Shown: one piece after another, positions 7,649-40,509 of the stretch
Numbering within the stretch: the stretch's first letter is position 1
Layout: the number at the start of each line of letters is the position of its first letter
From: a virus
Virus record (IMG/VR): IMGVR_UViG_3300032265_001669
Coordinates: 1 to 44,923 of that record
Direction: 5' to 3' (one strand)
DNA: 44,923 nucleotides
The notes under the pieces: model-generated
Database searches by the model: none
Told to the model about the DNA's origin: nothing
Seen by the model: the letters and a program-made list of their open reading frames with translations, nothing else
Translations under genes and position numbers: made by a program

Positions 7649-9005
7649 CGTTTGTAAAATATTCTAGTTCTGGAAATGCGGCATTAAAATCTGTATTACG
7701 TCTACGATCATGTTCCTTAACAAAGGCCGCAAAATCTCTACGATTGATTGCGAGTTCTTCTCCGCGATAACGATTGTGTTCGATCCAACGAACAACACGT
7801 TCAAGTTTAGAATATTCTGTTGAGTTAAACATTAACGGATCGCTGTTTTTTACCAGTGTACCCATGTATTTAAGTGTATCATTTAAATGAGCAATCATCT
7901 TATCGTCTGCAATTAAACTAGACAAATGCGGTGGCTCAATAAGATATGGTGTATCGAACCGTATGCGATCGGGGTATCGTTGTCGCATTTCTAAAATCTT
8001 ATCTAACAATAATTTAAAATTAGGAATACTTAAAAAGCAAAATGTAATCATGATGCCAATTCTTGTTCCAGGAACTTCTGTAAGATACAAGTCAATATTG
8101 CTTTCCCACTTAGACATTGTAAATCCATTGCGGATCCATTCTGCTTGAGGCCCCCATGTATCTACACTTGTGAATAAGCTCAACTGACCTATTTTGTTTT
8201 CTGCTTTTAAATTTTTGCAAGCATCTACAAACTTGTTAAGGTTACGTTCTGGAATACACATATTGCTATTGATAGCAAATTCTAAATCGTTGCGTGGATT
8301 ATCGTTGATCCACTCTAACACTTTAAACACATTACTACTCAATAACGGCTCTCCACCAGTTACCCTTAGTGTGTGAAGTTTAGGATAGGCACTTGGAAAC
8401 CATTTCCAAAATGCTTCGATGTATGGGTTATCATCTTCTTTTTGAAAAAATCTTCCAACTTGTGATATTTGGTGTATATTATACTGTCTACGATTTATTT
8501 CGTTTTCTAATGGATAGTCGCCGTGTTTTTTAATTTCTTTATGCCACGCACTGCTAATAGAAGAAGCACAGTAACTACATTTAAGCTGACATTCGTATCC
8601 AAAATTAATTTCTAAATAGCGAGGAACAACATCGGCCTGCCAATCTATTTTGCTAGTTTCATCTAATAATGGAGTTGCCCAGGGTTCGCTTGAACGTAAT
8701 TGTCGGTCGCTAATATGCTCTCCGGGCAAGTCTTCGATATCCCAACAGTAACTACACTCCGATGGCCGACCACCCTCGAGCATAGTTTTACGTTGTTCTT
8801 TCTTCCACTCACTGTTATGTAGTGCGCTAGGATTTTTAGTAATTTCTTCTAAAGATACTCTGTGCGGCATAGGATGATAGCAACTGTGGTTTGTGCCTGT
8901 GTGCAAATGCATACTTACATGATACCATTTTGCTAAACAAAATCCAGGACCAGTTTTATCCAGTGTTACTTTAATTTCTTTAAGTTTTGTGTTATAGTCT
9001 GTCAT
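7629..9005 (-). CDS. radical SAM protein, twitch-type, paralogue
   Basis: 458 residues. The core motif is C139, C143, C146 (CQLKCSYC), with RVTGGEPLL downstream. The N-terminal block FCLAKW (about 22-27), HSCYHPMPH (40-48) and C-SYCW (about 84-88) matches its upstream neighbour nearly residue for residue, so the pair arose by duplication. The ATG overlaps the preceding stop in an ATGA junction. The C-terminal motif NRRDFAAFVKEHDRRR is also shared with the neighbour. Probably a peptide- or small-molecule-modifying enzyme; the target is unknown. Confidence 0.8.
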   Translation of the reverse strand: MTDYNTKLKEIKVTLDKTGPGFCLAKWYHVSMHLHTGTNHSCYHPMPHRVSLEEITKNPSALHNSEWKKEQRKTMLEGGRPSECSYCWDIEDLPGEHISDRQLRSSEPWATPLLDETSKIDWQADVVPRYLEINFGYECQLKCSYCASSISSAWHKEIKKHGDYPLENEINRRQYNIHQISQVGRFFQKEDDNPYIEAFWKWFPSAYPKLHTLRVTGGEPLLSSNVFKVLEWINDNPRNDLEFAINSNMCIPERNLNKFVDACKNLKAENKIGQLSLFTSVDTWGPQAEWIRNGFTMSKWESNIDLYLTEVPGTRIGIMITFCFLSIPNFKLLLDKILEMRQRYPDRIRFDTPYLIEPPHLSSLIADDKMIAHLNDTLKYMGTLVKNSDPLMFNSTEYSKLERVVRWIEHNRYRGEELAINRRDFAAFVKEHDRRRNTDFNAAFPELEYFTNDAQRKE

Positions 9006-10417
9006 AATGTTTTACAGTAGTTATAAAATTCTGCCATCTCCGGGAATGTTTTTAGGAATTCTGTTTGACGCCTACGATCGTGTTCATCAACAAATACAGC
9101 AAAGTCTTTTTGATCTGTTTTATTTGTAGTCCTATTATCAAACACACTTAGGATTCTACTCATTCTGTTTACTTCGTAGTCATAAAACCCACGGCCGCAC
9201 AGTTCTGGTACATAGGTTTGTTGTAAGTTATCCTGCATAAACTTGATTTGTTCTTCAATCATAGTTCTATATTCATCCGGGAGTATTTCAATAGTTTGAT
9301 GTGTGGGCCAACGCAAGTAAGGAATGTCTATACCAATAGGGTGACGATCCACTTCATTAGTATACTTTAATCTAAATTCTAGCATGTCCTCTAAAAACTC
9401 TTTAAAGCTGGTAATACTTAGTGCATTATATGTACTCATTACTGTAATTTTACATCTAGGAACATTTTGCATTAGTCGATTACAGTTATCGAGCCATTGA
9501 TTATAGTCTAAACCATATCTAATGTATTCAGCACGACCACCCTTGGCTTCGCAACTTGTGTAAATCTTTACTTCTTTAACAGCACCTGCCTCTTGTATCT
9601 GTTTAAGTACGTTCATAAAATCCACAAATAATTTGTCAGGTACACACAAGTTACTGTTTATGTTTAAGTCTAAATCAGGACGAGGATTCTTTAAAATAAA
9701 ATCTAATAGTCTGAATGTGTGTTTAGTAAGTAATGGCTCTCCTCCTGTAACACGCAGTATTTTTAGATTTGGATACAAGTCTGGCCACCAAGACCAAAAT
9801 GCTTCAACATAAGGATTTACATCGCGTTCTAAGTAAGGCAACCGATCGTTATCCTTAAGCCAAGTTATGTCATGTAGGTTTTTACTAGTTGGATACGCAC
9901 CGTGTTCCTTTATTTCTTCCATCCATTTACTACTAACTTCAGGAGTACAATAACTACATTTAAAATTACAAACACTTGAGAAGCTTAGTTCTAAATAACT
10001 AGGGTCGTGTGTAGTTTGCGGATTGGCAACAATGTCATCAATATAAGGTCTTGCCCACTTGTCTACACTTTTCATTATACGATCACTAAACACTTGACCT
10101 GTAGGATCGCTATCCTCAACCTTCCAGCAATAATCGCACTCGTTTGGGCGTTTGCCTTCTAGCATTAATTGTTGTTGTTGTAGTTTGAATGAAGTGTTGT
10201 GTAATGCACTACTCGCTATCTTAATTTCTTCTATAGGAATATGATGAGGTGTTGGATGGTGGCAACTATGTGTTCTACCATTATGCAGATGTACAGTTAC
10301 TTGTTTCCATTTGGCTACACAAAAACTTGGACTAATAGCGTTAAGTTTATCTCTAAACGCTATTAGTTGTTGTCGTCTTTCTGCGTCTGTTCCAAAATCA
10401 TTCACAATTAAGTCCAA
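9002..10417 (-). CDS. radical SAM protein, twitch-type, paralogue
   Basis: 471 residues. The core motif is C150, C154, C157 (CNFKCSYC), with RVTGGEPLL following. The N-terminal block has FCVAKW (32-37), SCHHPTPH (51-58) and C-DYCW (94-98). The C-terminus FAVFVDEHDRRR parallels its downstream paralogue. First of four consecutive radical SAM genes. The called start is TTG at 10417; a GTG four codons later at 10405 is equally possible because neither has a strong ribosome site. It overlaps the stop of the preceding unknown gene. Confidence 0.8.
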   Translation of the reverse strand: MDLIVNDFGTDAERRQQLIAFRDKLNAISPSFCVAKWKQVTVHLHNGRTHSCHHPTPHHIPIEEIKIASSALHNTSFKLQQQQLMLEGKRPNECDYCWKVEDSDPTGQVFSDRIMKSVDKWARPYIDDIVANPQTTHDPSYLELSFSSVCNFKCSYCTPEVSSKWMEEIKEHGAYPTSKNLHDITWLKDNDRLPYLERDVNPYVEAFWSWWPDLYPNLKILRVTGGEPLLTKHTFRLLDFILKNPRPDLDLNINSNLCVPDKLFVDFMNVLKQIQEAGAVKEVKIYTSCEAKGGRAEYIRYGLDYNQWLDNCNRLMQNVPRCKITVMSTYNALSITSFKEFLEDMLEFRLKYTNEVDRHPIGIDIPYLRWPTHQTIEILPDEYRTMIEEQIKFMQDNLQQTYVPELCGRGFYDYEVNRMSRILSVFDNRTTNKTDQKDFAVFVDEHDRRRQTEFLKTFPEMAEFYNYCKTL

Positions 10418-26373: not shown

Positions 26374-26637
26374 TTAGACTGTATTTAGTGTGTTACTACT
26401 ATTAACAATTTCTTTCCCCCAGCCAGCACGATTCCACGCTCTTTCATGAAAATAGTACATTATGCTGTTTACTACTAGTGCAAAACTAACTACACCTAAT
26501 CCAACCCAAGGATTACCACTTGCTAGCCAACCTCCTAGAAAATTAGTAATAGTAACTAATATTCGCCAAGTAATCACTTTAGCCGCACTACGCGGTATCT
26601 TTTCTTGGAATCGTTCTTTAATTGTTGTTGAATCCAT
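26374..26637 (-). CDS. DUF2061-like membrane protein
   Basis: 87 residues. RSAAKVITWRILVTITNFLGGWLASGNPW ... VVNSIMYYFHERAWNR matches the DUF2061 pattern: K-x-I-T-W-R-x-L near the start, two membrane spans, then Y-Y-x-H-E-R-x-W. Members occur near sulphate-assimilation and other loci without known activity. It overlaps the PP-loop gene by 20 bases, with AGGAAAAA upstream. Membrane location suggests the pathway acts at the inner membrane. Confidence 0.78.
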   Translation of the reverse strand: MDSTTIKERFQEKIPRSAAKVITWRILVTITNFLGGWLASGNPWVGLGVVSFALVVNSIMYYFHERAWNRAGWGKEIVNSSNTLNTV

Positions 26638-27799
26638 TTTTCATTTTTCCTATAATATATTTTTGTTTAAAATCAAGTAGTGAGTCAGGGATACCCCACG
26701 TAGTCATATTGACATATTTTGGAATATTTTTTCTTAGAAAAAATAATCCATTTCTCCAATTTTCACGTTCTTTTTCAAACTGTTGTAGTCTCTTGAACCA
26801 TCCATCAAATTCTGTATTCCACCATTGTATTGACTTATCTGCTTGATACCAAGAATTATCCCATGTAGAGTATAACAAACTACGTAACCACCTTTCGTGA
26901 TATAAACGTCTCATTTGGGTTCCAGTATTTCTCCAATACCCCTGTCTATCTGGACGGTCTAATTCTAACCACCGTTTTATTACGTGTGCTTGTTTGCAAA
27001 CCATGTCAACAGAGTCAGGGCTCCAATAAAACAATTCTGTTGTTACATTACTGTACTCTTTATTAAAGTCGTTGATCGTTGTTATATTAGCAGTAGTATC
27101 ATTAAAAAATATATAAAAGTTTCCATTGTTATCAATCTGAGTCTTTGGTTTATCAACTCCTACAATTATACATGCGCTTTTTCCTTGGTCAAATTTCTTT
27201 TTAATTTCCCCAAAGTGAAAATAATTGTAACGGAATAGTTGCCCTGGTGATATATGATCATTTCGATGCAATACCCAATCTTCTTCACTAAAATCCTTCA
27301 TAGCATCTACAACGCTGTTACTGACATCTAGCACCGTAATTTTAGTTCTAGGTAGTTTATCAGTTATGTATTGTAATCTAGGCACAGCTTGAAGTTGATG
27401 CTCGGCAGCAAAGTTCCAACTATCTTTAAAATCGGAGTCTATTAGTGTGTATGATTTAGTAAGCTCGGTCATGTGATTAGTCACAATTTCATCTATGTGT
27501 AGACCTTGCCTGATAAAACTTTCTAATATATTATTAGTGTCAGCACCACCGCTAAAACTCAGCACAACGTAATCGTACTTTTCCCTCAATTGTCGACTAC
27601 GTCGATCGTATAGTTGGTCAAGAGATTCAGTAGGCTCAACTTGCCAATTATAGTTGTCAAACTCTAATCGATTAAAATACCATTCTACAGGTTTATTAGA
27701 TCTAGTACTGTGAAACAACGCATCAATTTTAGATGAAAATTCTATACCATCACAAAGATAGTATCCTAAATGTTTATTTGTCATATTATTTTCTAACAT
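26618..27799 (-). CDS. PP-loop ATP pyrophosphatase-like protein (asparagine-synthase-like)
   Basis: 393 residues from an ATG whose A overlaps the previous stop (TAATG). PP-loop S83-G-G-A-D87 in VVLSFSGGADTNNIL binds ATP for substrate adenylation. There is no N-terminal glutaminase domain. The C-terminal half is W/Y-rich and helical. This class activates a carboxylate or carbonyl for attack by an amine or thiol. It is next to another PP-loop gene, so the two may act on the same pathway. Exact family unresolved. Confidence 0.7.
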   Translation of the reverse strand: MLENNMTNKHLGYYLCDGIEFSSKIDALFHSTRSNKPVEWYFNRLEFDNYNWQVEPTESLDQLYDRRSRQLREKYDYVVLSFSGGADTNNILESFIRQGLHIDEIVTNHMTELTKSYTLIDSDFKDSWNFAAEHQLQAVPRLQYITDKLPRTKITVLDVSNSVVDAMKDFSEEDWVLHRNDHISPGQLFRYNYFHFGEIKKKFDQGKSACIIVGVDKPKTQIDNNGNFYIFFNDTTANITTINDFNKEYSNVTTELFYWSPDSVDMVCKQAHVIKRWLELDRPDRQGYWRNTGTQMRRLYHERWLRSLLYSTWDNSWYQADKSIQWWNTEFDGWFKRLQQFEKERENWRNGLFFLRKNIPKYVNMTTWGIPDSLLDFKQKYIIGKMKNGFNNN

Positions 27800-28713
27800 T
27801 AAAATATCCAATCTTTAAATTCTTTAATAGATCCCGAGCAAGATTCTAAATGTTGCACTACATCATTGTAATTTACACTGATGTGTGCTTCTTTAGGATA
27901 TGCCCAATGCGGAATCATCCAATTGGGATAATTTTCATAACCTGATTTTTTAGAAGGCCACAGGATGTCTCTTTTAAAGTATTTTCCTTTTAATAATCCT
28001 TTTAGATAATAATTAAATCTACTGCCCGGAACCATAGGCTGTTGAGTGCCCGCTACTACCAAATCGTTTGTAATATAATAATTACACACATCACCCCAAA
28101 TTTTAATTAGATCGTCGCAATAGTAAGAAGCGAGGCTTTCTGCACTATACGGAAAGTCTAAAATAGTTCGATGTTTATTAATTAAATTAAAACGTAAACG
28201 CAGACTTTCATGATAGTTGTGATATATGTGTAAACCAATTATTCGATTTCCTATGATTGCAGGTTCGTTTGCACCGCTCATAATCATGGGATAATTTTCT
28301 GGCAACATTTTGCTGGCAAGTTCAAAAGGGTAATGAACTAAAGTTGGTAAATTTTCAGAAATTGATCTTGCTTCCCACTCTTCGCGATGTTCTTCAAGTT
28401 GTACTTCTAAAATTTTAATTTTAATTCCGTAAAATTTTTCAGAAAGTTCCACTACTGTTTTTTCAAAATCATTACGTCCTTTTACATGAATGAAAAACGG
28501 TTCAAAATCTACCTTCATATCTAAAAAGCATCGAAGTATTACTTGGCTATCTACACCCGAACTAAACGCTACGTATACCTTACCGTATTTTTCATTAATA
28601 AGTTTTGTATCAGCATTAAGTTCTTCACGCAGATTTCCAAACTTTCGACTTGGACTTTGATATCTTACAACATATTCTTGTTTGTCGATTTCGTATGTTA
28701 TTGGATTGTCCAT
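27799..28713 (-). CDS. PP-loop ATP pyrophosphatase-like protein
   Basis: 304 residues. PP-loop S51-S-G-V-D55-S56 in VYVAFSSGVDSQVILRCF. A second block MSGANEPAII (about 150) may close the nucleotide site. Architecture parallels the 311-residue protein at 30.1 kb: N-terminal lead of 45-65 residues, PP-loop, then helical tail. Probably an ATP-dependent amide, thio or ammonia-transfer enzyme; no partner glutaminase is seen. Confidence 0.7.
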   Translation of the reverse strand: MDNPITYEIDKQEYVVRYQSPSRKFGNLREELNADTKLINEKYGKVYVAFSSGVDSQVILRCFLDMKVDFEPFFIHVKGRNDFEKTVVELSEKFYGIKIKILEVQLEEHREEWEARSISENLPTLVHYPFELASKMLPENYPMIMSGANEPAIIGNRIIGLHIYHNYHESLRLRFNLINKHRTILDFPYSAESLASYYCDDLIKIWGDVCNYYITNDLVVAGTQQPMVPGSRFNYYLKGLLKGKYFKRDILWPSKKSGYENYPNWMIPHWAYPKEAHISVNYNDVVQHLESCSGSIKEFKDWIF

Positions 28714-28714
28714 T

Positions 28715-29179
28715 TTAATTTTTCAAATCCATAGTTGTTCTATAAAATAAAGTTTCTTTTCCAATTGATTTACAAATTGCCAGCATTGGTATATTATCGC
28801 AATGCACGTGACTATTAATACTGCCGGAGTTATTAGTTTTTGCAACTTTTTCTAAATAAGAATGCATTATTTTATATAACCCTCTTCCTCTATATTTTTC
28901 AAAAACAGTCCCAAGAACTATCCATGTAGTTTTTTGGTAATCATTCTGGTAATTAAACACTATAAATCCTGCTACTTCATCTTCAATTTTGACATATATT
29001 ACTTTACTGTCATTTGAGCCCATTAAGGCTTGGTTCGCCCAACCTTTTTCTATTAATGATGCTGTTTCTTTTAAAAAGAAAGGCACAATGATAGATCCTC
29101 CTAAAGTACTAGAAAGATTAACAGAAACAATTGTTTGTGTTTTGTCTTGGACTTTTCCTAACTCGCTGACTATTGGCAT
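28715..29179 (-). CDS. GNAT family acetyltransferase-like protein
   Basis: 154 residues from the ATG at 29179, which has GGAG seven bases upstream. The acyl-CoA pyrophosphate loop is YRGRGLYKIM (about 96-105). GNAT enzymes acylate amines on small molecules or proteins. It opens the leftward operon; a GCTAAATA motif at 29197-29204 lies just ahead. Confidence 0.72.
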   Translation of the reverse strand: MPIVSELGKVQDKTQTIVSVNLSSTLGGSIIVPFFLKETASLIEKGWANQALMGSNDSKVIYVKIEDEVAGFIVFNYQNDYQKTTWIVLGTVFEKYRGRGLYKIMHSYLEKVAKTNNSGSINSHVHCDNIPMLAICKSIGKETLFYRTTMDLKN

Positions 29180-29227
29180 AATGTTTCTCCGTGACATATT
29201 TAGCAGGCAGTTTTTTAGGATAAAAAT

Positions 29228-29806
29228 TTATAAATCCAATCTGTACTTGTTCATATGCTGATTCCACTTGTCAGTTGCATCACTATTTAAAAAATACATA
29301 GCGACCCACTGTTTACAACTTTCCGGAATAGGATCTAGGGAACCGCACACGTTGTATTTGCTGGATTCCATGCAAAAGGAGATGTTGCAATTTATGTTAA
29401 TCAACTGCAAATAATGCACAAACGCTCTTTGATTATCTTCTCTACTGATAAAAACACAATCCAACTTCAATAATTTTGCCTTGGCTAGTTGTAAAGGAAG
29501 ACAATATGTTGTGTTGAGAAATTTTTCTCCACCCACAAATTTACCCCGGTGTCTGTAATCAGGATGTATCCACATTCTAGTGCTTACCCGTCCAATTCCC
29601 TTGCCCCATCGTTCGTCGTTAATTTGCAGTGCGCTGAAACACACAATTTTGTCATCCACAATCACCACCGGAAAACAAGCAAACATTCTCGGATCCAAAT
29701 TCAAATAGTTGGCTTTGAGATCATCTGTAGTAGTCAGCAGATATGCTTGATATTTTTCCCAAAGTTCAGAATCATAACTGGTAGCGAAATCGATAATTTT
29801 TTTCAT
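29228..29806 (-). CDS. GNAT-like acetyltransferase
   Basis: 192 residues from the ATG at 29806; the frame extends 20 codons upstream across the palindromic promoter region, so I use the shorter start. STRMWIHPDYRHRGKFVGG (about 95-113) resembles the beta4-alpha3 GNAT acetyl-CoA loop. Late part VFISREDNQRAFVHYL fits the following helix. No ribosome site is obvious. Divergent from the acyl carrier protein gene. Confidence 0.55.
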   Translation of the reverse strand: MKKIIDFATSYDSELWEKYQAYLLTTTDDLKANYLNLDPRMFACFPVVIVDDKIVCFSALQINDERWGKGIGRVSTRMWIHPDYRHRGKFVGGEKFLNTTYCLPLQLAKAKLLKLDCVFISREDNQRAFVHYLQLININCNISFCMESSKYNVCGSLDPIPESCKQWVAMYFLNSDATDKWNQHMNKYRLDL

Positions 29807-29813
29807 GGTGATA

Positions 29814-29827
29814 TATTTACGTAAATA
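29814..29827. promoter_or_regulatory. palindromic bidirectional late-type promoter candidate
   Basis: Perfect 14-base palindrome TATTTACGTAAATA in the divergent gap. Each strand reads CGTAAATA, which keeps the TAAATA core of late promoters. It could fire both ways, or be an operator. Confidence 0.4.
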
Positions 29828-29865
29828 CGTTGCGCACATACTAACACGTGGCAGGAGACATAACA

Positions 29866-30084
29866 ATGACAGATTCTGAAAAGATTGAATTTATAGAAAA
29901 TGCAATACTGATTCTTACAAAAAAAACTTTAAAATTGAAACCAACTGATATTTTGGTAGACTTATCTTTGGATTCGTTGGATATTGTTGAACTACAAATG
30001 TACTACGAAGAAACCACGGGACACGAAATAGAATCCGATGCTGTTGTTTTCACTGTTGGTGAATTAATGGCTTTGATGAAATGA
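29866..30084 (+). CDS. acyl carrier protein
   Basis: 72 residues from the ATG at 29866, with AGGAG eight bases upstream. The phosphopantetheine-attachment motif is D36-S37-L38 in SLDSLDIVELQM. Acidic helical fold of normal ACP length. It would carry an acyl or aminoacyl group on a host-added phosphopantetheine arm; no phosphopantetheinyl transferase is here. Stop overlaps the next start (ATGA), tying it to the PP-loop protein. Confidence 0.88.
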   Translation: MTDSEKIEFIENAILILTKKTLKLKPTDILVDLSLDSLDIVELQMYYEETTGHEIESDAVVFTVGELMALMK

Positions 30085-31016
30085 ACTTTACACAAAATAA
30101 TCATTTGACCTATACCATAGGCGATAGACTATTTGGACATCGTGACACACCGTATGAAAAATACAAAGTGCATGTGGGAAAAATAGATATTGATTATTAC
30201 AAAACAAGTAATTGGTTGGAAGAACAATACCGCACTGCTGACATGGTATCCAAAGAATTTGGTAAAGATTTAGTAGTAATGTTCAGTGGTGGAACAGACA
30301 GCGAAATTGTGTTGAGATCGTTCCTTAAAATCGGTGTCAAACCCAGGGCTGTGTTTATTAAATTCAAAGACGACTATAACTGGAATGATTATCTTAACGG
30401 ATTGGTAATTTGCAACGAACTTGGAATAATGATGGAAACTATAGAGTTCGATGTTAAGGAATTTTATAAAAGCGGTGAAGCCGCTGAGTTTGCAACAGTG
30501 CTACAATGTCGTCAAATTGCTTATTTGACAGTTTATCACAACATTTTAAAACTACAAGCACCTGCGGTAATGGGCGGCGAAATGCTGTTGAGACGTCACG
30601 TGACTCCTACAGACAGCAAGTGGTATTATACATTTAGAGAAAACGAAGATGCAAGTGCTATGAGATTTAGTATGAAATATACTATTCCATTAGTGAATGA
30701 ATGGTTCAGTTATACTCCAGAAATGATTGGTTACTATTTGGAAAACACTGGTATTCAGCAGTTGATCACCGAACGGTACAACTACAAACTGGCAAGCGTA
30801 AGTTCAAAAAATGAAATATTGTATACACTTATGCCTGAACTGGTGAGGAAAAACAAAACCACAGGGTATGAAAAACTGCTGGGGTTCAACGGGGAAACAT
30901 ATAGAGAGTTGTACCTAACACATCCTAGGCGACTAGAATCCAGCTTGGACGGCATTTTTATAGATGATTTAAAAATTCAATTATACGGAAAAAATTATGA
31001 CAGTAGTAAAACTTGA
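30081..31016 (+). CDS. PP-loop ATP pyrophosphatase-like protein
   Basis: 311 residues. PP-loop S69-G-G-T-D73-S74 in LVVMFSGGTDSEIVLRSF. A later MGGEMLLRRH segment may close the site. It is translationally coupled to the acyl carrier protein, which suggests it adenylates or amidates a carrier-bound or free acid. Third member of this class in the island. No glutaminase domain. Confidence 0.72.
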   Translation: MNFTQNNHLTYTIGDRLFGHRDTPYEKYKVHVGKIDIDYYKTSNWLEEQYRTADMVSKEFGKDLVVMFSGGTDSEIVLRSFLKIGVKPRAVFIKFKDDYNWNDYLNGLVICNELGIMMETIEFDVKEFYKSGEAAEFATVLQCRQIAYLTVYHNILKLQAPAVMGGEMLLRRHVTPTDSKWYYTFRENEDASAMRFSMKYTIPLVNEWFSYTPEMIGYYLENTGIQQLITERYNYKLASVSSKNEILYTLMPELVRKNKTTGYEKLLGFNGETYRELYLTHPRRLESSLDGIFIDDLKIQLYGKNYDSSKT

Positions 31017-31596
31017 TAGTTCACACGCAGACGCAGTTAAAAACTTGTTCCGTTCTAAAAAATACATGGGTGTTGATATCAACAGCACCAGTTTTAATCA
31101 AAACGGCAATGGTGAAATATTCAATGCAACATTGTATAATATTTTTTGCTCTAACTATCTAAGTGATTTGAATAATTTTCATGCATATGGTTACTTGGAA
31201 AATGACCAAATCAAAGCATTAATTTCATTTTATGAAAGTAATGAAGAACCTTCCTGGTTTTATACCATATATAGAAGTAGCGGAAATAATAACTTGCTGA
31301 GAGAAGTATTAGATGTAGTAATTGATCATAATGAAAAAAATGGAAGATTGAAATTTTACACGCTGACTCAGTCTGCACACACTCGATTATTGCGCAGGTT
31401 CCATTGGAGTAAATACAATGATGAAAGATATGGGTATTTTGACGAGTTTCTAGTACCAGGTAAAAATAAATGTTTCTATGTTAATCCTTGGGAATTGCTT
31501 TACAAAAGATTTTTAGTTCCTGAAGATTCTATTGTCAGATGTAATTACTTGAAACAAGAATATAGAACCACATTACCCATTGGAGGGGGGATATGA
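30997..31596 (+). CDS. GNAT-fold-like protein
   Basis: 199 residues. The opening VVKLDSSHADAVKNLF and the NNLLREVLDVVIDHNEKNGRLKFYTLTQSAHTRLLRRFHW section fit a GNAT fold, but the R-x-x-G-x-G/A loop is not clear, so catalysis is uncertain. Overlaps the PP-loop gene by 20 bases and the desaturase by 4. Confidence 0.5.
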   Translation: MTVVKLDSSHADAVKNLFRSKKYMGVDINSTSFNQNGNGEIFNATLYNIFCSNYLSDLNNFHAYGYLENDQIKALISFYESNEEPSWFYTIYRSSGNNNLLREVLDVVIDHNEKNGRLKFYTLTQSAHTRLLRRFHWSKYNDERYGYFDEFLVPGKNKCFYVNPWELLYKRFLVPEDSIVRCNYLKQEYRTTLPIGGGI

Positions 31597-32390
31597 ATTT
31601 GTTTAAAAATGTATCAAAATCATTTTGGTTACAATTTGTGCCTGGCATGATTTTGGGTGCCGCAACAATTGTATTATTGATAATGGGAGTTATTCCACTT
31701 TACTATTTGTGGGCAACATTTGTCATGTGGACATTGGTTTGCGGGCTGGGCATCGCAGTGGGATATCATAGAATATTCAGCCATCGCACTTACCAACTGC
31801 CTGTGTGGAAAGAGAACATAATATTATTTTTTGCCGCAATGGCCGGCCAAGGTGCAAGTATATTTTGGGTAGCAATGCATCGTGGTTACCATCATCCTCA
31901 TTCTGATACTGCAAAAGATCTACACAGCCCAGTGGCTTATGATAAAAAAACAGCATTTGTTGGTTGGTATCTCAAATTGACCACTGGTAATAATCCTGTA
32001 AATATCAAATACGCAGTTGACTTGCTTAGGAAAAAGAACCATGTATGGTTACACAACAACTATCATTCTGTGCTATGGGGTATTCCATTAGTTGTGGCAC
32101 TGTTTGATTGGCGACTATCTTTGACAGCATGTTGTCTTGTGACTTGCATTGGATTACTACAAGATAATTTGGTCAATGTGTACGGGCATTTGAAAGGCAG
32201 TATTGGTTACAGAAATTTTGAAACCACAGATAATTCCCATAATAATCCGATACTGGGATACCTAGCATGGGGCCAAGGTTGGCACAACAATCATCATCAC
32301 TCGCCTGGTTCTTTTGATTTTGGGTCTGGTGTAAGTGGAAAATGGTGGGAGTTAGATCCTTCTAGAATTTTTATTCCTTTTTTAAAATGA
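31593..32390 (+). CDS. fatty acid (acyl) desaturase
   Basis: 265 residues. Three histidine boxes: H59-RIFS-H64, H96-RGY-H100-H101, and H231-NN-H234-H235, set among about four membrane spans (11-31, 36-58, 76-94, 163-190). These bind the di-iron centre of membrane desaturases, typically the delta-9 class, which insert a double bond into acyl chains. Strong GGAGGGGGG site. Neighbouring acyl carrier protein suggests an acyl substrate. Confidence 0.9.
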   Translation: MNLFKNVSKSFWLQFVPGMILGAATIVLLIMGVIPLYYLWATFVMWTLVCGLGIAVGYHRIFSHRTYQLPVWKENIILFFAAMAGQGASIFWVAMHRGYHHPHSDTAKDLHSPVAYDKKTAFVGWYLKLTTGNNPVNIKYAVDLLRKKNHVWLHNNYHSVLWGIPLVVALFDWRLSLTACCLVTCIGLLQDNLVNVYGHLKGSIGYRNFETTDNSHNNPILGYLAWGQGWHNNHHHSPGSFDFGSGVSGKWWELDPSRIFIPFLK

Positions 32391-32995
32391 ATGATACAAG
32401 TCAATTATACCAAAAAATATTTTCTGAGTTCAGTGTATCTTGGAATATAGATGAATTAGAACGTGAATTTGAAACTATTGAACTTGATAGATATTATCGT
32501 AGACCTTATTCAGATCCAAACAACAGAACTCATTGGCAGCATTTTAGTAGCGGGATAGCATTTTGCAGAAATTTTCATTTAAATTTTAATAAAGAATGTA
32601 TTGAAGTAGCTGAAGAATTGAAAAAACATCAGCGTACAATTTCGCAGAGCTACCGTTCTGATAATCGTCTGATACTAGAATTTTTGCGACATAACATCAG
32701 GCCAGACAGGGTTAATATCACTAAAATTATGCCTACTAAACATGTTGGTGCCCATGTGGATATCACTAGAGACATATGTTTAAATATTGGATTAAAAAGA
32801 AGTAACAAGTGGGATACTCTTATTCAAGATACGCTGACTGTAGAAAACTTCGAGCCTGAACAAGCTCATAGGTTTGTGATAGACGAAGGCACTGGATATC
32901 TCATGTCAGTAAAACATGTTCACTCAGTGGCATGTAACGACTACTCAAATCAACTTCCTAGATATGTTATTACTTATAATTTGTTAAATAGATAA
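32387..32995 (+). CDS. Fe(II)/2-oxoglutarate oxygenase-like protein
   Basis: 202 residues. Proximal site H123-V-D125 (GAHVDITRDICLNIGL), distal H179 (VKHVHSVAC) and R192 (PRYVITY). ATGA overlap with the desaturase. Fold order is consistent with a complete enzyme; substrate unknown. Confidence 0.7.
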   Translation: MNDTSQLYQKIFSEFSVSWNIDELEREFETIELDRYYRRPYSDPNNRTHWQHFSSGIAFCRNFHLNFNKECIEVAEELKKHQRTISQSYRSDNRLILEFLRHNIRPDRVNITKIMPTKHVGAHVDITRDICLNIGLKRSNKWDTLIQDTLTVENFEPEQAHRFVIDEGTGYLMSVKHVHSVACNDYSNQLPRYVITYNLLNR

Positions 32996-32997
32996 TC

Positions 32998-33564
32998 ATG
33001 ACTGTCTATTTTAAAAAAATTGATTCAAGCATTTTTCCAACAGCTCTGATTGATCCTGATTCTATCAAAGGTGAGTTAAAATTTCATTATGGCCATCCTC
33101 GTTATTTTGAAATAAGTGATAAAGATTATGTAGAATCTTTAAAAAAAGTTTTCAAAATACCTCCGGTAAATTTTTATCTAGTAGAAGGACACGGTGTTTT
33201 GCCTCCTCATTTTGATCACGGTCAAGACAGCTGTCTTAATTTTTATATACGGCCAGGCGGTTATACTACTAGTTTTTGGAAACTAAAAGAAAACGCTAAA
33301 AATAGAGTAAGCATTAAGTATGATGCAAAAACTAACACAACAAAAGAAGTTAATACCGGTTATTATTATGAAGATTTAATATTGATAGATCAATTTCAAG
33401 CAATTGCCGGTGAGGCCTATGTTTTAAATATATCAGAAATACATTCTGTAGAAGGTGCTAATCCAGAAAAACCTAGAGCGTTTGTCCAATTGCAATGGAA
33501 CATGACAATGGATCAATTATTAAAATCTTTAAATTTTAACGGAAATAACAATGAAAATTTATAA
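32998..33564 (+). CDS. Fe(II)/2-oxoglutarate oxygenase-like protein
   Basis: 188 residues. Proximal H71-F-D73 (PPHFDHGQDSCLNFYI), distal H149 (SEIHSVEGA) and R160 (KPRAFVQLQW). Two bases after the previous stop. Compact, no extra domains. Substrate unknown. Confidence 0.7.
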   Translation: MTVYFKKIDSSIFPTALIDPDSIKGELKFHYGHPRYFEISDKDYVESLKKVFKIPPVNFYLVEGHGVLPPHFDHGQDSCLNFYIRPGGYTTSFWKLKENAKNRVSIKYDAKTNTTKEVNTGYYYEDLILIDQFQAIAGEAYVLNISEIHSVEGANPEKPRAFVQLQWNMTMDQLLKSLNFNGNNNENL

Positions 33565-34336
33565 ATTAACTACTGCTATTGGAGCAGAAATAACCGGTGT
33601 TGATTTATCGCAACCATTACCATCTACAACTGTAGTAGATTTAAAAAATGCATTAATTGATAATCGTATGATATTTTTTAGAGATCAAGAATTAAATCCT
33701 AACTACTTACCAGAGGTTATGAATCAATTTGGCGAAATTTATATTCATACCGATGAGAAGAAATATAATAATAATCCTAAAATTGGATATGTGTTTTCGG
33801 GGGAAGATACAACATTTTTTGAAGTTGATGGGAAATATATGCATTCTGACAGAACGGCTGTAGCAGAACCCCCTAGAACCTCTATGTTATATATTACCGA
33901 ATGTCCATCTGTCGGTGGCGACACAATATTTGTCAACACCTCTAAGATTTATAATCAAATGGATGACGGTCAAAAATCATTTCTATCGTCTTTATCGGCA
34001 TTGCATGTTGCTCCTGGCAAACGTAGAGACTTGGGCGATTATACAGTAGGAGCAACACATCCGGTCATTGCCATAAGGCCTGAAACACAAGAAAAATATT
34101 TAAATGTCAATGAGATGGCTTCAGTTAGCATAACACGTCTAAAATCAATGGAAAGTAATAATTTGTTATCGAGACTTTTTCACACACTTCGCCACCCCCA
34201 ATATTCTTGTAGACTACGCTGGAGTCCTAATACCATAGCTTGGTGGGACAATTTTGGATCACAACATCAAGCTGTATGGGATTATTATCCTATGCGTCGA
34301 GTTGGTTACAGGGTTCTTTCTAAAAATCTTTACTGA
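33551..34336 (+). CDS. TauD/TfdA family dioxygenase
   Basis: 261 residues. The classic TauD pattern is visible: GAEITGVDLSQPL near the start, H98-S-D100, GGDTIFVNT (about 122-130), THPVIAIRPETQEKYLNVN, and WWDNFGSQHQAVWDYYPMRR with H239 and R250. TauD relatives oxidise small substrates such as taurine or aryloxyacids. Overlaps the previous gene by 14 bases and the convergent SDR by 7. Confidence 0.88.
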   Translation: MKIYKLTTAIGAEITGVDLSQPLPSTTVVDLKNALIDNRMIFFRDQELNPNYLPEVMNQFGEIYIHTDEKKYNNNPKIGYVFSGEDTTFFEVDGKYMHSDRTAVAEPPRTSMLYITECPSVGGDTIFVNTSKIYNQMDDGQKSFLSSLSALHVAPGKRRDLGDYTVGATHPVIAIRPETQEKYLNVNEMASVSITRLKSMESNNLLSRLFHTLRHPQYSCRLRWSPNTIAWWDNFGSQHQAVWDYYPMRRVGYRVLSKNLY

Positions 34337-34992
34337 TTGCCGTAAGCATTACTTATTTCTAAAGATTTAATACTTACCCAAGGCGGTTGAGTTATGATCC
34401 ACTGAATAGTTTCTGCTATATATTCAGCACTCATAGGCATATAAGATTTAAAATCATAGTTTTCGTAAATATCTGTCATAGGCTTGCTATCAGCATCTGC
34501 TGACATCATGGTAGTGTACACTATTTGTGGCTCTAAACTTGTTATAAATACTGGCTTAGTTCGATAGTTTGATAAATTATTACTTAAATTCTTTATAAAC
34601 AACTTTGATGCTTTGTAACACAACTCACCGATACCAGATTTTGGGCCGCCAGATGTGTTGGCTGACCAGCTGGATATATTAATTATATACCCAGCTGTCA
34701 TTTTTGTATAAAATTTTACTAGTAAAAATCCCGCTGATTCTACATTGGTGTTTAATAATTCGTCTACTTTTACACTACCATTAACTCCTGCATTATTAAT
34801 AAACACTTGCGGAGTATACTTATTGACTAGCATGTTTCGAAATTCAGTATCGTTTATGTCCCCAACTTCAGTTACAAATTCTCCGGGAGTCCTAGATACT
34901 CCCACAATTTCATACAAATCTTTAAAGTGTTTTGCACAGGCAAGTCCTATGCCTCGACTAGTGCCAGTTATTAACATTATTGGTTTAGACAT
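34330..34992 (-). CDS. short-chain dehydrogenase/reductase
   Basis: 220 residues. NAD(P)-binding TG-TSRGIG (9-16), N66-N67-A68-G69, active-site S107/S108, and Y126-K-A-S-K130. It would oxidise or reduce an alcohol or ketone. Coupled with an oxygenase upstream. Convergent 7-base overlap with TauD-like gene and no terminator. Confidence 0.88.
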   Translation of the reverse strand: MSKPIMLITGTSRGIGLACAKHFKDLYEIVGVSRTPGEFVTEVGDINDTEFRNMLVNKYTPQVFINNAGVNGSVKVDELLNTNVESAGFLLVKFYTKMTAGYIINISSWSANTSGGPKSGIGELCYKASKLFIKNLSNNLSNYRTKPVFITSLEPQIVYTTMMSADADSKPMTDIYENYDFKSYMPMSAEYIAETIQWIITQPPWVSIKSLEISNAYGNQ

Positions 34993-35720: not shown

Positions 35721-36362
35721 ATGATACCAGAAGATCTAAGTCGATATCGATATCAAATTGAAAAATGGCCTGAAGACAAAACTACATGGGCAAGTCTTAA
35801 AGGATCCACGACTACCAAAAATCTTACTAGATTAATACACAATCTCACAGGATTTGATGATAGCTACCGAGAACTAATTGATAATTTGGACAAATTTGAT
35901 TTACATTGCGGATCTAAAACGCCAACGGCTCCACGATCGTTAGTGTATGCACAGACCGGACCTTTAAGAGAATGCAGAACCATTTATCTAGCAAATAACA
36001 TGGAACGATCGGAACTAGTTGATAAATCTGTGTTTCCTAAAACTTTTTTATTTTTAAGAAAATTAAAGCAGTTGATAGAGGAAGAAAATCCTAGAAGGTT
36101 AACCAGAGCATACGTTACTACTCTAGGACCCGGAAAACAAATATATCCGCATAATGATACAATAGCACCATATTTTGATAATATTGAAAGGTATCAATTT
36201 TATTATACAGGAACAGATGAAGTTTTACAGATAGTAGGAGATACTCTATTTCCTGTCAAACCAGGAGACTTGTATTACCTCGATCATAAACAAATTCACT
36301 CATATCATAATAAAAGTTCTTTAGATTTGATGCTGATGGTATTTGATTTAGCCATAGTTTAA
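35721..36362 (+). CDS. Fe(II)/2-oxoglutarate oxygenase-like protein, AspH-like
   Basis: 213 residues. Proximal H144-N-D146 (YPHNDTIAPYFDNIERYQF), distal H193 (QIHSYHN). The expected co-substrate Arg about ten residues after the distal His is absent (the stretch reads SSLDLMLMVF), so it may use another anchor or be altered. The long N-terminal part has GSKTPTAPRSLVYAQTG. Substrate unknown. Confidence 0.6.
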   Translation: MIPEDLSRYRYQIEKWPEDKTTWASLKGSTTTKNLTRLIHNLTGFDDSYRELIDNLDKFDLHCGSKTPTAPRSLVYAQTGPLRECRTIYLANNMERSELVDKSVFPKTFLFLRKLKQLIEEENPRRLTRAYVTTLGPGKQIYPHNDTIAPYFDNIERYQFYYTGTDEVLQIVGDTLFPVKPGDLYYLDHKQIHSYHNKSSLDLMLMVFDLAIV

Positions 36363-36387: not shown

Positions 36388-37068
36388 ATGATTAGTCATA
36401 GATCAATACAATTGACAGATGCTCAAGCAATTTTAACAGAAATTGTCAACGACCCCGACCCAAATTGGTTTAGACCAAAGGGTAAACCTGGTAAACAACT
36501 TCATGATGATTCACCCGGAGATTTTGACTTAGGTGCAATGAAATTTGTTAATAAAAATTTAAATTATTTTTATTTTATTAATATGATATCATATGCCCTC
36601 AAAAACAATTACGAATATAATCCAAATTATCCCCATACATTAAATTTTTGTAATAGGATGAGAGAAGTACTAAATGAACCTGGTCCGTTTGGCAGAATGT
36701 GTATATGGAATTTAGATGCTCATTGTAAATTATTGCCTCACACTGATGCATGGAAATATCATAAACGAATCAAAAGATATATACTCTGTGTAAGTACGCA
36801 TGCCGGTAACGAAGCATTAATAAGAATTGCTGGTGAAAAAATTGATGTTAAACAGGGATTATTTTTTAGTTTTAATCCCGACACCGATATACATGAGTTT
36901 GTAAATTATACCGATCGTCCTTTTTATTTTATTGGTTTTGATTATTGGAACATTGAAAAATTATCCGAAGCAAGTTTAGAAAATAATATAACAATCGATA
37001 CTGTGATACCATACACAGAAGAATATGGGGGCCATGGATATACTACCAGATTTATGGGCCCGGAATAA
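36388..37068 (+). CDS. Fe(II)/2-oxoglutarate oxygenase-like protein, AspH-like
   Basis: 226 residues. Proximal H118-T-D120 (LLPHTDAWKYHKRIKRYI), distal H169 (DIHEFVNY), R177 (DRPFYF). AAAGGAAA site. The block order is that of aspartyl/asparaginyl beta-hydroxylase-type enzymes. Followed by the fifth radical SAM gene, with which it probably shares a transcript. Confidence 0.7.
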   Translation: MISHRSIQLTDAQAILTEIVNDPDPNWFRPKGKPGKQLHDDSPGDFDLGAMKFVNKNLNYFYFINMISYALKNNYEYNPNYPHTLNFCNRMREVLNEPGPFGRMCIWNLDAHCKLLPHTDAWKYHKRIKRYILCVSTHAGNEALIRIAGEKIDVKQGLFFSFNPDTDIHEFVNYTDRPFYFIGFDYWNIEKLSEASLENNITIDTVIPYTEEYGGHGYTTRFMGPE

Positions 37069-37087: not shown

Positions 37088-38413
37088 ATGTTTTGTAAAA
37101 CTGTTTGGAGCGGGTTGCATATTTTACCTGACGGATACATTAGATTATGTTCTATTGGGCAAAATTCTAATAAAAAATTAGACATGCAACGTGCCAGAGA
37201 TAAAGATGGCAAGGTAATGCATATACTAACCCATAGTATCTATCAAATAATGAATAGTGATAAACACAAAGAAGTTAGATTATTCAATGTTAATAATCCT
37301 GATAAATGGAGTCCGCATTGCGACTGTTGTGAGAATCGAGAGATAATAACAAATCATGATAGAAACCATAAAAATAAAAGTCGTAGAATATATTTGCTGA
37401 AAATAGAAGATGATAATGTTGTGTCAGAAGAAGACTATCAGCAAAACAAAATAGATAGTGAGGGTAATATAGATTGGATGCCAAGCTCGTTGGATATAAG
37501 ATTTGGCAATTTGTGTAATCAAAAATGCATTATGTGTAGCCCTGCGTTTAGCAATTTATGGTACGAAGAACATTTTGATTACTTTAAAACTAATTCGTTT
37601 GGGCAAGGAACTAAAATTACAGTTACCAAAAACACAGATACTGGTAAATGGATGGAGCCTGCTGAACTTCAATGGTATGAAGATCCTAGATGGTGGCCAA
37701 AGTTTGAAGAAATGATGCCGCATTTAAAACATATCTATATCACAGGCGGCGAACCAATGGTTACTCCAGCTCATGATATCATGCTTGATAAACTAATCGA
37801 AGCTGGTTACGCAAAAAATATATGGATAGAATACGATACAAATGCCAGTGCTATCAATAATAAAATAGCACAACGATGGAGTCATTTTAAGAAAGTAGAT
37901 ATTCGTGCTAGTATGGATGCAATTGGCAATCAATATGAATTGATAAGATTTGGTGGTAAATGGGAAAAATTTCAAAACAATATTAAAACTTTGAAACAGT
38001 ATGAAAAAGATTCTGGTGGTATAGTGAATTTATTATCAGTTAGTACATGTTTTCAAATTCCCACAGTGTACAGCATTATTGAAAGCGAAGAATGGTGCAA
38101 GAGTGTTGGGGTTAATTTTCATTTAAGATTTTTAGAAGGGCCTGCTCGATTATCAGTATCTTCATTATCTGACAAATCAAAACAAGAGTTGCTGGACTAT
38201 TATATAGAAAATCGAGATAAAGCAGATAAAGCACCAATGATTATAACATATTTAAAAAATCACATGGGTGATAAATTTTATAAACCCGATGAAGTAGTAG
38301 AGTTTATAAAATTTATGAATTATCTCGATGGCACAAGAAAAACTGATTGGAAATTAACTTTCCCCCAAGTATCACAAATGATAGAGAAAAATGAAATACA
38401 GAAAGCTGGGTAA
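37088..38413 (+). CDS. radical SAM protein with N-terminal cysteine block
   Basis: 441 residues. Internal motif C143-x3-C147-x2-C150 (CNQKCIMC), ITGGEPM downstream. N-terminal block has C3, C21, C78, C80, C81, like the proteins at 6.4-10.4 kb but with longer spacing. So this island enzyme is related in architecture to the distant cluster. Strong AAAAGGAAAA site. It overlaps the next oxygenase by 23 bases. Confidence 0.8.
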   Translation: MFCKTVWSGLHILPDGYIRLCSIGQNSNKKLDMQRARDKDGKVMHILTHSIYQIMNSDKHKEVRLFNVNNPDKWSPHCDCCENREIITNHDRNHKNKSRRIYLLKIEDDNVVSEEDYQQNKIDSEGNIDWMPSSLDIRFGNLCNQKCIMCSPAFSNLWYEEHFDYFKTNSFGQGTKITVTKNTDTGKWMEPAELQWYEDPRWWPKFEEMMPHLKHIYITGGEPMVTPAHDIMLDKLIEAGYAKNIWIEYDTNASAINNKIAQRWSHFKKVDIRASMDAIGNQYELIRFGGKWEKFQNNIKTLKQYEKDSGGIVNLLSVSTCFQIPTVYSIIESEEWCKSVGVNFHLRFLEGPARLSVSSLSDKSKQELLDYYIENRDKADKAPMIITYLKNHMGDKFYKPDEVVEFIKFMNYLDGTRKTDWKLTFPQVSQMIEKNEIQKAG

Positions 38414-38991: not shown

Positions 38992-40509
38992 TTAATGAAC
39001 AGCCACCCAAGCTCCATTTGCGTATGCTGTTATCTTTAGTGTGACACTGTCATAAAACATCATTCCTTCTACTGGTGGAGATGTTAAGACAAGGGTAGCA
39101 CCGGTCAATGTTCCAGCTGTAGTTGTAATTGCGCTGCCGCCACTGGTAGTTGACAAGGTAAATGTTGTAGAACCGTTAGTAGCTGTAATAAAATATGTCG
39201 TTGGGTTGCTATAACCAGTTATGGTTGCACCGGATAGTGTACCACTGATTGTAATTTGTCTACCAACTGCTAAGTTTCCTGCAAAAGAAGTTCCTAATGT
39301 AAATGCGCCACCGGTGGCTACAGTAATCGTACCAGATAATGTTACAGTATTACTAACTGCTGTTGTTGCGGCCGCAGTTCCTGCAAATGTTGGCAATATA
39401 GGCATTACAGAAAATCGTACTTGTGATCCTGTATTTGATTGTGTAGTTATCATTACACCACTTGAATTCTTGCATTGGATTTTTACGTCAGTTTGCAGTT
39501 GTCCTGTAGAGACTGCGCCGTACACTGTAGATGAAATCTGTGAACCGGTAAGTAAGTTTGTACCGTCATAGCCCATAAATCGTAAAGTGTGTATTTTATC
39601 TCCAGTTGTTAAGGCAACCTGTGAAGTAGTTGTTCCAGCATATCTTCCAAAATTTGTATATGTACCGTTACCTCCGGGGGAGATTAGATATGAATATATC
39701 CCAAGCTGTGTTAAGTCGGGTGAAAACATCTGAAAACGTGTTCCCATATCCGCATCCAAGAATAAACCAGTGTTTAAATTTCCTGATCCATCTGCGGTAA
39801 TAAAATTGAGTCTTCCAGGTACGGCTGTAGAGGTAACAGGAAATCTTGTTGACACCGCAGATGCTATCATTGATGCTGTTTTATAAGATCCAGAGCTATA
39901 CCCTTGAGCTGATATTTTAACTAAGTTGTCGCTAGCCGCTACAGCAAGCGGAACTGCCTCTGTGCCTCTTGCTCTATTGCCTATTAAGTTAAAGACAATA
40001 TCTCCATTATTTAGGAATTGATTTGATATGACACTTCCATTAATATTAATATCACCCATTCCGGTAATATTAAAACTATTTAAGTTCAAATTACCACCTA
40101 AATTAGGATTAGTATCTGAGATAATATTAGTTAGACCGCCTGTTGTTGCTGTTATACGATTATTAGCATCGTCATAGGTAAAAGTAATACCAGTATTGTA
40201 TGAATTACCAGCTGTTAGGGCCGCACCCACTGCATCTTGGGCACGTTCTGTTGTAAAATATAAGTTAGAATTTTCAGTTACTTGTGCTGTATTAAGATTT
40301 AAGTTTCCAATAGAAAAATCAATTTGCTGAGTAGTCGGGTTAAATGTAAAACCGTTTCCTGCGCTTGTTTCTAGAACGTGCTTACCGCCAGCGGTAATGC
40401 CGTCACCGATATATAATTTTTGAGTATCTGTTGTGTAAACAATTTCACCCTGGTCAAATGTGATACTTGTTCTTTGACTGTTAGTTCCGCGTCTAATGCG
40501 TAGCGACAT
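38992..40509 (-). CDS. fibre-type virion protein with Mtd-like N-terminus
   Basis: 505 residues. The N-terminal LRIRRGTNSQRTSITFDQGEIVYTTDTQKLYIGDG block matches the Mtd N-terminal/hyaluronate-lyase-type domain that anchors phage fibres. An NLYFTTERAQDAV repeat-type segment follows, then Ser/Thr/Gly-rich beta structure, and a GMMFYDSVTLKITAYANGAWVAVH C-terminus. Probably a tail or neck fibre. Read from a late-type motif with GGAG before the ATG. Confidence 0.8.
   Translation of the reverse strand: MSLRIRRGTNSQRTSITFDQGEIVYTTDTQKLYIGDGITAGGKHVLETSAGNGFTFNPTTQQIDFSIGNLNLNTAQVTENSNLYFTTERAQDAVGAALTAGNSYNTGITFTYDDANNRITATTGGLTNIISDTNPNLGGNLNLNSFNITGMGDININGSVISNQFLNNGDIVFNLIGNRARGTEAVPLAVAASDNLVKISAQGYSSGSYKTASMIASAVSTRFPVTSTAVPGRLNFITADGSGNLNTGLFLDADMGTRFQMFSPDLTQLGIYSYLISPGGNGTYTNFGRYAGTTTSQVALTTGDKIHTLRFMGYDGTNLLTGSQISSTVYGAVSTGQLQTDVKIQCKNSSGVMITTQSNTGSQVRFSVMPILPTFAGTAAATTAVSNTVTLSGTITVATGGAFTLGTSFAGNLAVGRQITISGTLSGATITGYSNPTTYFITATNGSTTFTLSTTSGGSAITTTAGTLTGATLVLTSPPVEGMMFYDSVTLKITAYANGAWVAVH

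Follow-up and report, generated by a model that had tools for sequence, protein, structure and literature searches.

A conserved phage gene cassette joins a predicted stand-alone asparagine-synthetase-type PP-loop enzyme to a GNAT-fold acyltransferase, a membrane desaturase and an optional acyl carrier protein

We analysed a 44,923-base virus record (IMG/VR record IMGVR_UViG_3300032265_001669), hereafter the window, which is identified as a phage fragment by its tail fibre, DNA ligase and phosphoesterase families. It carries four genes, encoding an acyl carrier protein (ACP), a PP-loop enzyme (PPa), a GNAT-fold acyltransferase (GNATa) and a membrane desaturase (DES), in one transcriptional direction and with successive overlaps. 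These genes form one conserved unit, beyond chance, because the same order is kept in dozens of viral contigs, their dN/dS values are low and they are inherited together. The core of the unit is PPa-GNATa-DES, and the ACP is optional. Our best reading, held tentatively, is that of a phage biosynthetic cassette which, with host partners, would make an unsaturated, N-acylated, amide-containing small molecule or aminolipid. The four genes are as follows.

29866..30084 (open reading frame (ORF) 29848-30084), plus strand: ACP, fatty-acid-synthase-like (FAS-like), with a predicted DSLD phosphopantetheine site; PF00550 (PP-binding) 19.4 bits, slightly under the cut-off of 20.8; family-alignment profile against solved ACPs, best E 4e-12.
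30081..31016, plus strand: PPa, predicted stand-alone PP-loop synthetase of the asparagine synthetase (AS) type, without a glutaminase domain; predicted fold and SGGTDSE motif.
30997..31596, plus strand: GNATa, predicted divergent GNAT-fold acyltransferase; predicted fold; neighbour of PPa in 73/73 testable loci.
31593..32390, plus strand: DES, membrane fatty-acid desaturase by profile; FA_desaturase (PF00487) 53.7 bits, cut-off 29.7.

The probable start of the ACP is the ATG at 29866, preceded by AGGAG, and its TGA shares the letters ATGA with the PPa start at 30081. The PPa stop (31016) and the GNATa start (30997) overlap by 20 nt, the GNATa stop and the DES start (31593) again share ATGA, and a further 4-nt ATGA overlap links DES to the next downstream gene (32387..32995). 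The initial annotation, made from the letters of the window, had described both the ATGA junction of carrier protein and PP-loop gene and the overlapping frames of the GNAT-like gene and the desaturase, and both are present as it said.

An initial PPa scan found 36 viral loci, and an ACP scan added a single further one; together with the window they made a set of 38. Among these, the ACP lies upstream of PPa in 31/38 (in L027 with an opposite-strand ORF between them), GNATa is found immediately 3′ of PPa in all 35 loci whose contig continues, and DES comes next in 33 of 34, the 34th having it upstream. A PPa profile scan returned 83 relatives, of which the best 80 were kept, corresponding to 78 viral loci; GNATa is present in 73 of them, DES in 70, an upstream GNAT (GNATu) in 50 and the ACP in 33. 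In the five loci that have no GNATa the sequence stops within 31 nt of PPa, and the PPa stop falls within the GNATa ORF in 70/72. Eight loci have no DES: five end just past PPa or GNATa, another two start inside PPa or shortly ahead of it and could have lost a leading DES (DES comes first in 19 other loci), and L270 lacks it with about 4 kb present on each side. In the reverse direction, a GNATa scan led to 65 loci with PPa adjacent in 63, the other two contigs beginning 1 and 233 nt before GNATa. The arrangement GNATu-PPa-GNATa-DES is present in a 524,565-base phage contig (L308, L315, L316).

The set contains near-identical contigs, the 77 PPa sequences (window included) being reduced to 63 below 97% identity. 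The median dN/dS, calculated according to Nei and Gojobori for pairs with dS between 0.1 and 2, was 0.10 for PPa (16 pairs), 0.17 for GNATa (16), 0.39 for the ACP (83) and 0.12 for DES (56); these low values indicate purifying selection on the cassette genes. Additionally, the protein distances of the four genes correlate among loci (Mantel rho 0.35-0.79, with 20-22 loci per pair, hand-chosen from the 38), and the observed value was reached by 0/999 label shuffles in five gene pairs and by 6/999 for GNATa-ACP. Since related loci are not independent, this result is to be read as joint inheritance and not as a probability.

The ACP has the features of a FAS-like carrier, with a predicted phosphopantetheine site whose Asp-Ser-Leu residues (D42 S43 L44) are unchanged in 23/23 aligned ACPs, DSL[DE] being found in 32/33. 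As the profile finds it in just 33/78 PPa loci, the core has to be placed at PPa-GNATa-DES. The initial annotation had seen the centre of the system in a carrier protein coupled to PP-loop ATPases; this view is not supported in that form, as the other 45 loci have no recognisable ACP and its presence switches at least seven times on the PPa tree (a quick tree of 63 phage rows, 61 scored). The idea that the hidden Markov model (HMM) had overlooked the ACP in these loci was rejected, a short-ORF scan for DSL-like motifs returning solely unrelated-looking ORFs and whole-record searches of six ACP-less contigs returning no ACP. A careful PPa tree has rows with an ACP in each of its two large clades, therefore the ACP has likely been lost or gained repeatedly, in a direction that is undecided. 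Of the 33 loci with an ACP, 30 have a desaturase no further than 2.6 kb from PPa, and the contigs of the remaining three end early. In L026, GNATu and the ACP are fused in one 255-aa ORF, in which PF00550 exceeds its cut-off (22.2 bits) and the GNAT part stays below it. From the side of the ACP profile, 31/59 loci have no PPa, GNATa or DES within 2.6 kb of the ACP; five of these 31 represent, by their ACP, a second phage cassette (three contigs read fully), and among the others is an ACP of 144 aa found in phage regions that look structural. This longer ACP has a C-terminal tail and, in L209 (3845-4279) and similar loci, stands beside structural-looking and 2-oxoglutarate (2OG)-oxygenase-like genes. 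An earlier paper reports ACP genes in phages (PMC8224337).

PPa is 311 aa long and carries its PP-loop at residue 69, and its AlphaFold model, built on a 30-row alignment, has a pLDDT of 87. The best structural match of the model is human asparagine synthetase (9b6c_A; Z 16.1, 252 residues aligned, root mean square deviation (rmsd) 3.8), followed by E. coli AsnB (Z 14.7), beta-lactam synthetase (14.7), carbapenam synthetase (14.0) and TsnB9 (11.2), while LarE and NAD synthetase give Z values near 10. Against a viral structure library, the first eleven matches comprised phage proteins that are uncharacterised, plus a single protein named as an asparagine synthase. These data predict a PP-loop enzyme of the asparagine-synthetase/beta-lactam-synthetase type without the glutaminase half, so that the ATP-dependent activation by a PP-loop protein proposed in the initial annotation keeps its enzyme class and is narrowed by the predicted fold. 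The Pfam result was a sub-threshold PP-loop-type match alone, and QueC, PAPS reductase and LarE were rejected as the family of PPa, their HMM matches being all sub-threshold and their Z values lower than that of asparagine synthetase. Beta-lactam and carbapenam synthetases retain a degenerate glutaminase-like domain. The N-terminus of PPa presents a conserved T..NNH motif, and the PP-loop reads SGGTDSE in 76/78 loci and SGGTDSD in 1/78. Residues identical in 77 phage and 10 Bdellovibrionota PPa sequences include T4, N7, S69, G70, G71, D73, S74, G166, W181, E187, Y211, P213, E214, K243, K259, G262 and E264; E167 is invariant across the 30 aligned rows, and K243, K259 and E167 are candidates for counterparts of the catalytic Lys and Glu of AsnB.

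GNATa gave no match to Pfam. Its model (pLDDT 87) adopts a GNAT fold, with Z 14.4 and rmsd 2.8 over 154 residues aligned to 3g8w_B, and the protein is therefore predicted to be a divergent GNAT-fold acyltransferase. The use of acyl-ACP as GNAT donor is indirectly suggested by the GNATu-ACP fusion. DES belongs by its profile match to the membrane fatty-acid desaturases; it also matches the NCBIfam DesA family with E 8.5e-17, under the family cut-off. Histidine boxes 1 and 3 are present in 67/67 full-length relatives, and box 2 was found as HxGYHH, the spacing that was scored, in 45/67.

In the 16 viral records searched, no phosphopantetheinyl transferase (PF01648) and no GATase_7 glutaminase were detected, with 10/14 and 14/14 control genomes positive, respectively, in line with the absence of both noted in the initial annotation; host partners would therefore be needed, among them a host holo-ACP synthase. 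In the same way, 15/16 phage records have no AMP-binding enzyme of the ANL type (PF00501), the single match lying about 190 kb from the cassette.

At the DNA level, window positions 24000-44923 had no match among deposited phages; a search of 50,697 deposited phage records returned no relative for PPa, and the ACP likewise had no match among deposited phages. For a PPa relative (L039), the matches listed among deposited phages covered about a quarter of the query with E 0.1-0.6, and were taken as noise. DES matches were distant, one in Pelagibacter phage Mosig and one in a record named as an Acinetobacter phage; the latter (L099, CAKLQH020000002.1) was set aside, as its trp, btuB and baeSR neighbours resemble a bacterial chromosome. 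In Mosig (L098, 1640-14586), a comparable island by the tail fibres carries MoaA-like, carbamoyltransferase, desaturase, TauD, Asp_Arg_Hydrox, GNAT and aminotransferase genes. In 84,980 species genomes, two strict peptide patterns led to four confirmed places, all in Bdellovibrionales. L041 (LNEB01000015.1) has the order PP-loop gene, DES, membrane protein, GNATa-like gene, ACP, DES, together with a B12-type radical SAM protein, an Asp/Arg-hydroxylase, a short-chain dehydrogenase (SDR) and a split transketolase; L078 has a PP-loop gene, a GNATc-like protein (GNATc being a weak GNAT-like gene of the window, see below) and DES; and L086 has a PP-loop gene, two desaturases and a very weak GNATa-like match (12 bits). 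A PPa relative was detected in 37/368 Bdellovibrionota genomes (profile search, many matches weak), a count from which no enrichment in Bdellovibrionota is claimed.

A second phage cassette was observed in L312 (3197-14064), L313 (1115-13685) and L314 (4173-14419). In all three contigs read, the ACP family of the first cassette is accompanied by DES, by a protein of 386-392 aa and by several genes that look 2OG-like by eye. The ACP is followed by an ORF of 276 or 468 aa, without a Pfam match in the copy scanned. L312 and L313 also carry a separate DES-GNATu pair, and L312 two further PP-loop-type genes by motif; the ACP of L312 falls at the very edge of the stretch read and can be seen in L185. 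That ACP, GNATu and DES recur with other enzymes is what would be expected of an acyl module. In the literature searched, whose coverage excluded most subscription papers and bioRxiv, we found no report of the gene combination.

The proposed biosynthetic route would run in five steps. Host AcpS would convert the phage ACP to its holo form and host fatty-acid synthesis would load it, cassettes without an ACP borrowing that of the host. GNATu and/or GNATa would then pass the acyl group from the carrier to the amine of an amino-acid-like head group, a step put forward because of the GNATu-ACP fusion and of known GNATs that use carriers. PPa, by its predicted fold, would adenylate a carboxylate of that molecule with release of pyrophosphate, and attack by ammonia or an amine would yield the amide, in analogy with asparagine or beta-lactam synthetase minus the glutaminase half. 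DES, of an enzyme class assigned by profile, would introduce a double bond in the acyl chain, and variable neighbours (2OG oxygenases, radical SAM proteins, SDR, methyltransferases) might tailor the product in a different way from phage to phage. The initial annotation had suggested an acyl-amide or lipid-like product; the enzyme classes do fit amide formation, acyl transfer and desaturation, and the product itself we infer. A broader proposal, which we regard as more doubtful still, is that a large-phage lineage produces an acylated amide lipid or signal of its own through a dedicated multi-enzyme cassette around a stand-alone AS-like ligase, which would act on substrates that are carrier-bound or GNAT-acylated, with a chemistry common to Bdellovibrionota and a product from a natural-product family without a described member.

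Several observations weigh against this biosynthetic reading. In 45/78 loci PPa, nearly always with GNATa and DES, has no recognisable ACP beside it. When profiles are compared, PPa matches E. coli AsnB weakly (E 0.0025, probability 12%), so that the AS link rests on predicted structure, and PPa did not match Pfam Asn_synthase (PF00733) at E up to 1. GNATa is, by Pfam, unlike known N-acyl amino acid synthases, and its profile found no copy in a six-frame search of the 368 Bdellovibrionota genomes, which counts against a common cluster there, although hmmsearch of the locus does find the L041 copy (36 bits). DES could instead act on bulk membrane lipid.

The genes around the cassette in the window are listed below.

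29228..29866 (likely start ATG 29806), minus strand: GNATc, weak GNAT-like, divergent; PF13508 E 0.046, PF00583 E 0.057.
28715..29197, minus strand: GNATb, GNAT acyltransferase; PF00583 32.6 bits, E 1e-7.
27799..28713, minus strand: PPb, second PP-loop protein, PPa paralogue; PF01507 E 9e-4; 31% identity to PPa, E 6e-7.
26618..27811, minus strand: PPc, PP-loop-like; SGGADT motif alone, no Pfam match; family of 10 genes in 8 loci.
32387..32995, plus strand: 2OG-oxygenase-like tailoring gene, by eye; no significant Pfam match; family of 9 genes in 8 loci.
32998..33564, plus strand: oxygenase-like gene, HxD...H pattern by eye; no Pfam match.
33551..34336, plus strand: TauD-family 2OG dioxygenase; PF02668 E 5e-45.
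34330..34992, minus strand: SDR; PF00106 E 5e-12.
35721-36362 and 36388-37068, plus strand: two Asp/Arg-hydroxylase-like oxygenases; PF05118 19.4 bits (under the cut-off) and 27.1 bits (over it).
37088..38413, plus strand: radical SAM/SPASM protein; PF04055 29.6 bits, PF13186 23.9 bits.

On the divergent side, the initial annotation had counted two PP-loop genes and one GNAT. Both PP-loop genes exist, outside the interval 28715-32390 that it described and the second by motif alone, and there are two GNAT genes instead of one. A DUF2061 membrane protein also lies on this strand, and GNATc relatives occur near cassettes in L031, L035 and L037. GNATc and the ACP gene diverge from a gap of 59 nt, so the interval where a promoter had been proposed does exist, while the promoter itself gained no support: the promoter and terminator scan of the region was uninformative, and consensus matches (91, against 64.7 in shuffles, sd 8.4) show a modest excess that is not proof. 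The gap contains a perfect 14-bp palindrome, TATTTACGTAAATA (29814-29827), which occurs once in the window, with 0.52 expected if two mismatches are allowed.

Among neighbour families in 117 representative clusters, Asp_Arg_Hydrox was found in 6, Radical_SAM in 3 and TauD in 2, besides methyltransferases, glycosyltransferases, epimerase, Rieske and carbamoyltransferase; the core is therefore constant in variable surroundings. NrdA-, PAAR-, baseplate-, lysozyme- and IscU-like genes (names by eye) precede the cassette in the 524-kb contig, and similar-looking families recur 5′ of the cassette in other loci. This 524,565-base contig has at least four PP-loop paralogues in addition to PPa. IscU-like iron-sulphur scaffold genes (name by eye) lie 5′ of the cassette in 7 loci, e.g. 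L016 (3843-4223). TctC-type periplasmic receptor genes (PF03401), found in 6 loci, e.g. L018 (17687-18589), hint at proteobacterial hosts. Elsewhere in the window, four radical SAM genes in a row beside two DUF6492 genes (5242-10417, minus strand) may form a second biosynthetic block, a fibre gene lies at 746-2215, and the gene at 38992-40509 encodes a Major tropism determinant N-terminal domain (Mtd_N, PF18454 E 2e-10), possibly receptor-binding.

Another function, which we think unlikely and yet the strongest of the alternatives, is that the cassette modifies a macromolecule or glycan, such as the amino-sugar units in the envelope of the host or in the virion. In that case PPa would amidate a uronic acid or sugar, the GNATs would N-acylate amino sugars and DES would act on a lipid carrier or on acyl groups. 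The window island adjoins the tail-fibre-like genes (the Mtd_N protein and the fibre), the Mosig island is likewise next to tail fibres, and glycosyltransferases, an epimerase and a carbamoyltransferase are among the neighbours. However, the sugar genes stay outside the conserved core, a membrane desaturase fits oddly with sugar chemistry, and the cassette of the 524-kb contig adjoins baseplate-, NrdA- and lysozyme-like genes (names by eye).

PP-loop enzymes form acyl-adenylates that are open to N or S nucleophiles. PPa might accordingly be a PP-loop acyl-ACP ligase, adenylating a free fatty or amino acid and loading it on the ACP thiol, in the role that JamA, a fatty-acyl-AMP ligase (FAAL), has in jamABC. 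The ACP/PPa gene overlap and the lack of an ANL adenylating enzyme in 15/16 phage records speak for it, but the retention of PPa in the 45 loci without a recognisable ACP, the repeated switches of ACP presence and the constancy of GNATa and DES, not the ACP, as partners of PPa make it improbable.

Slightly less probable again is a peptide modification system with an AS-like enzyme, of the lasso type or another of the ribosomally synthesised and post-translationally modified peptides (RiPPs), in which radical SAM and 2OG enzymes act on a ribosomal peptide. AS-fold enzymes make macrolactams in lasso peptides, and a radical SAM/SPASM protein and oxygenases are close by; in such a system, though, the ACP and the membrane desaturase would have no obvious role, and neither a lasso protease nor an RRE family turned up among the scanned window genes or the 25 neighbour families shown, precursor peptides not having been searched (the short-ORF scan addressed DSL motifs alone). 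Finally, a set of unlinked auxiliary metabolic genes in a hypervariable region, with the desaturase serving membrane fluidity, as viral desaturases are explained in two papers (PMC7300359, PMC7678222), with an ACP of the kind already on record in phages (PMC8224337) and with the rest unrelated, is the least credible explanation and already disfavoured by the order and overlap kept in dozens of contigs and by the joint inheritance.

Phages are known for single metabolic genes, and here three to five biosynthetic genes, among them one for a dedicated carrier protein, are kept as a fixed unit in contigs of up to 524 kb. Such a fixed unit suggests a molecule important for infection, the identity of which would test whether phages make their own lipids or signals. 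Under the biosynthetic reading, identification of the product would add an AS-type ligase without a glutaminase to the amide-forming enzymes.

In comparison with known systems, PPa shares with asparagine synthetase B and with beta-lactam and carbapenam synthetases a predicted fold over 239-256 residues (Z 13-16) and the PP-loop SGGxDS. Unlike these AS-type synthetases it has no N-terminal Ntn glutaminase-like domain, in the place of which stands the T..NNH motif, and its sequence match to AsnB is weak; its conserved lysines K243 and K259 are common to the Bdellovibrionota relatives. The jamABC alkyne cassette likewise encodes a membrane desaturase together with a dedicated ACP and has an adenylate-forming type of enzyme (PMC8406139). 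The phage cassette differs by a PP-loop enzyme in place of the FAAL, by its GNATs and by the optional ACP. In the sbz pathway (altemicidin/SB-203208), as far as the available text of the source goes, GNATs take acyl groups from carrier proteins (PMC6331615), and the likeness extends to adenylate-forming enzymes, carrier proteins and GNATs using carrier-bound acyl groups; the activating enzymes there are of other kinds and a desaturase is not named in that text. Bacterial aminolipids and N-acyl amino acids (OlsB, OlsF, FeeM) are made by GNAT-type N-acylation with acyl-ACP among the activated donors, and the portion of the review at hand mentions neither an AS-like enzyme nor a desaturase (PMC11631085); GNATa and GNATu differ in having no detectable Pfam similarity to those families. 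The sbz, jamABC and aminolipid systems are, within these sources as available, precedents for parts of the cassette, none having the whole combination. DES is in the same enzyme superfamily as the viral fatty-acid desaturases of sea-ice and Lake Baikal viruses and of cyanophages; those of sea ice and Lake Baikal are described, in the accessible parts of the two papers, as single auxiliary genes (PMC7300359, PMC7678222), whereas DES belongs to a fixed set. Lastly, the Bdellovibrionales cluster L041 differs in gene order, in an extra membrane protein and transketolase genes and in a PPa identity of 29%, and it resembles the phage cassette and its neighbours in combining a PP-loop relative, a GNATa-like protein, an ACP and two desaturases with a radical SAM protein, a 2OG oxygenase and an SDR.

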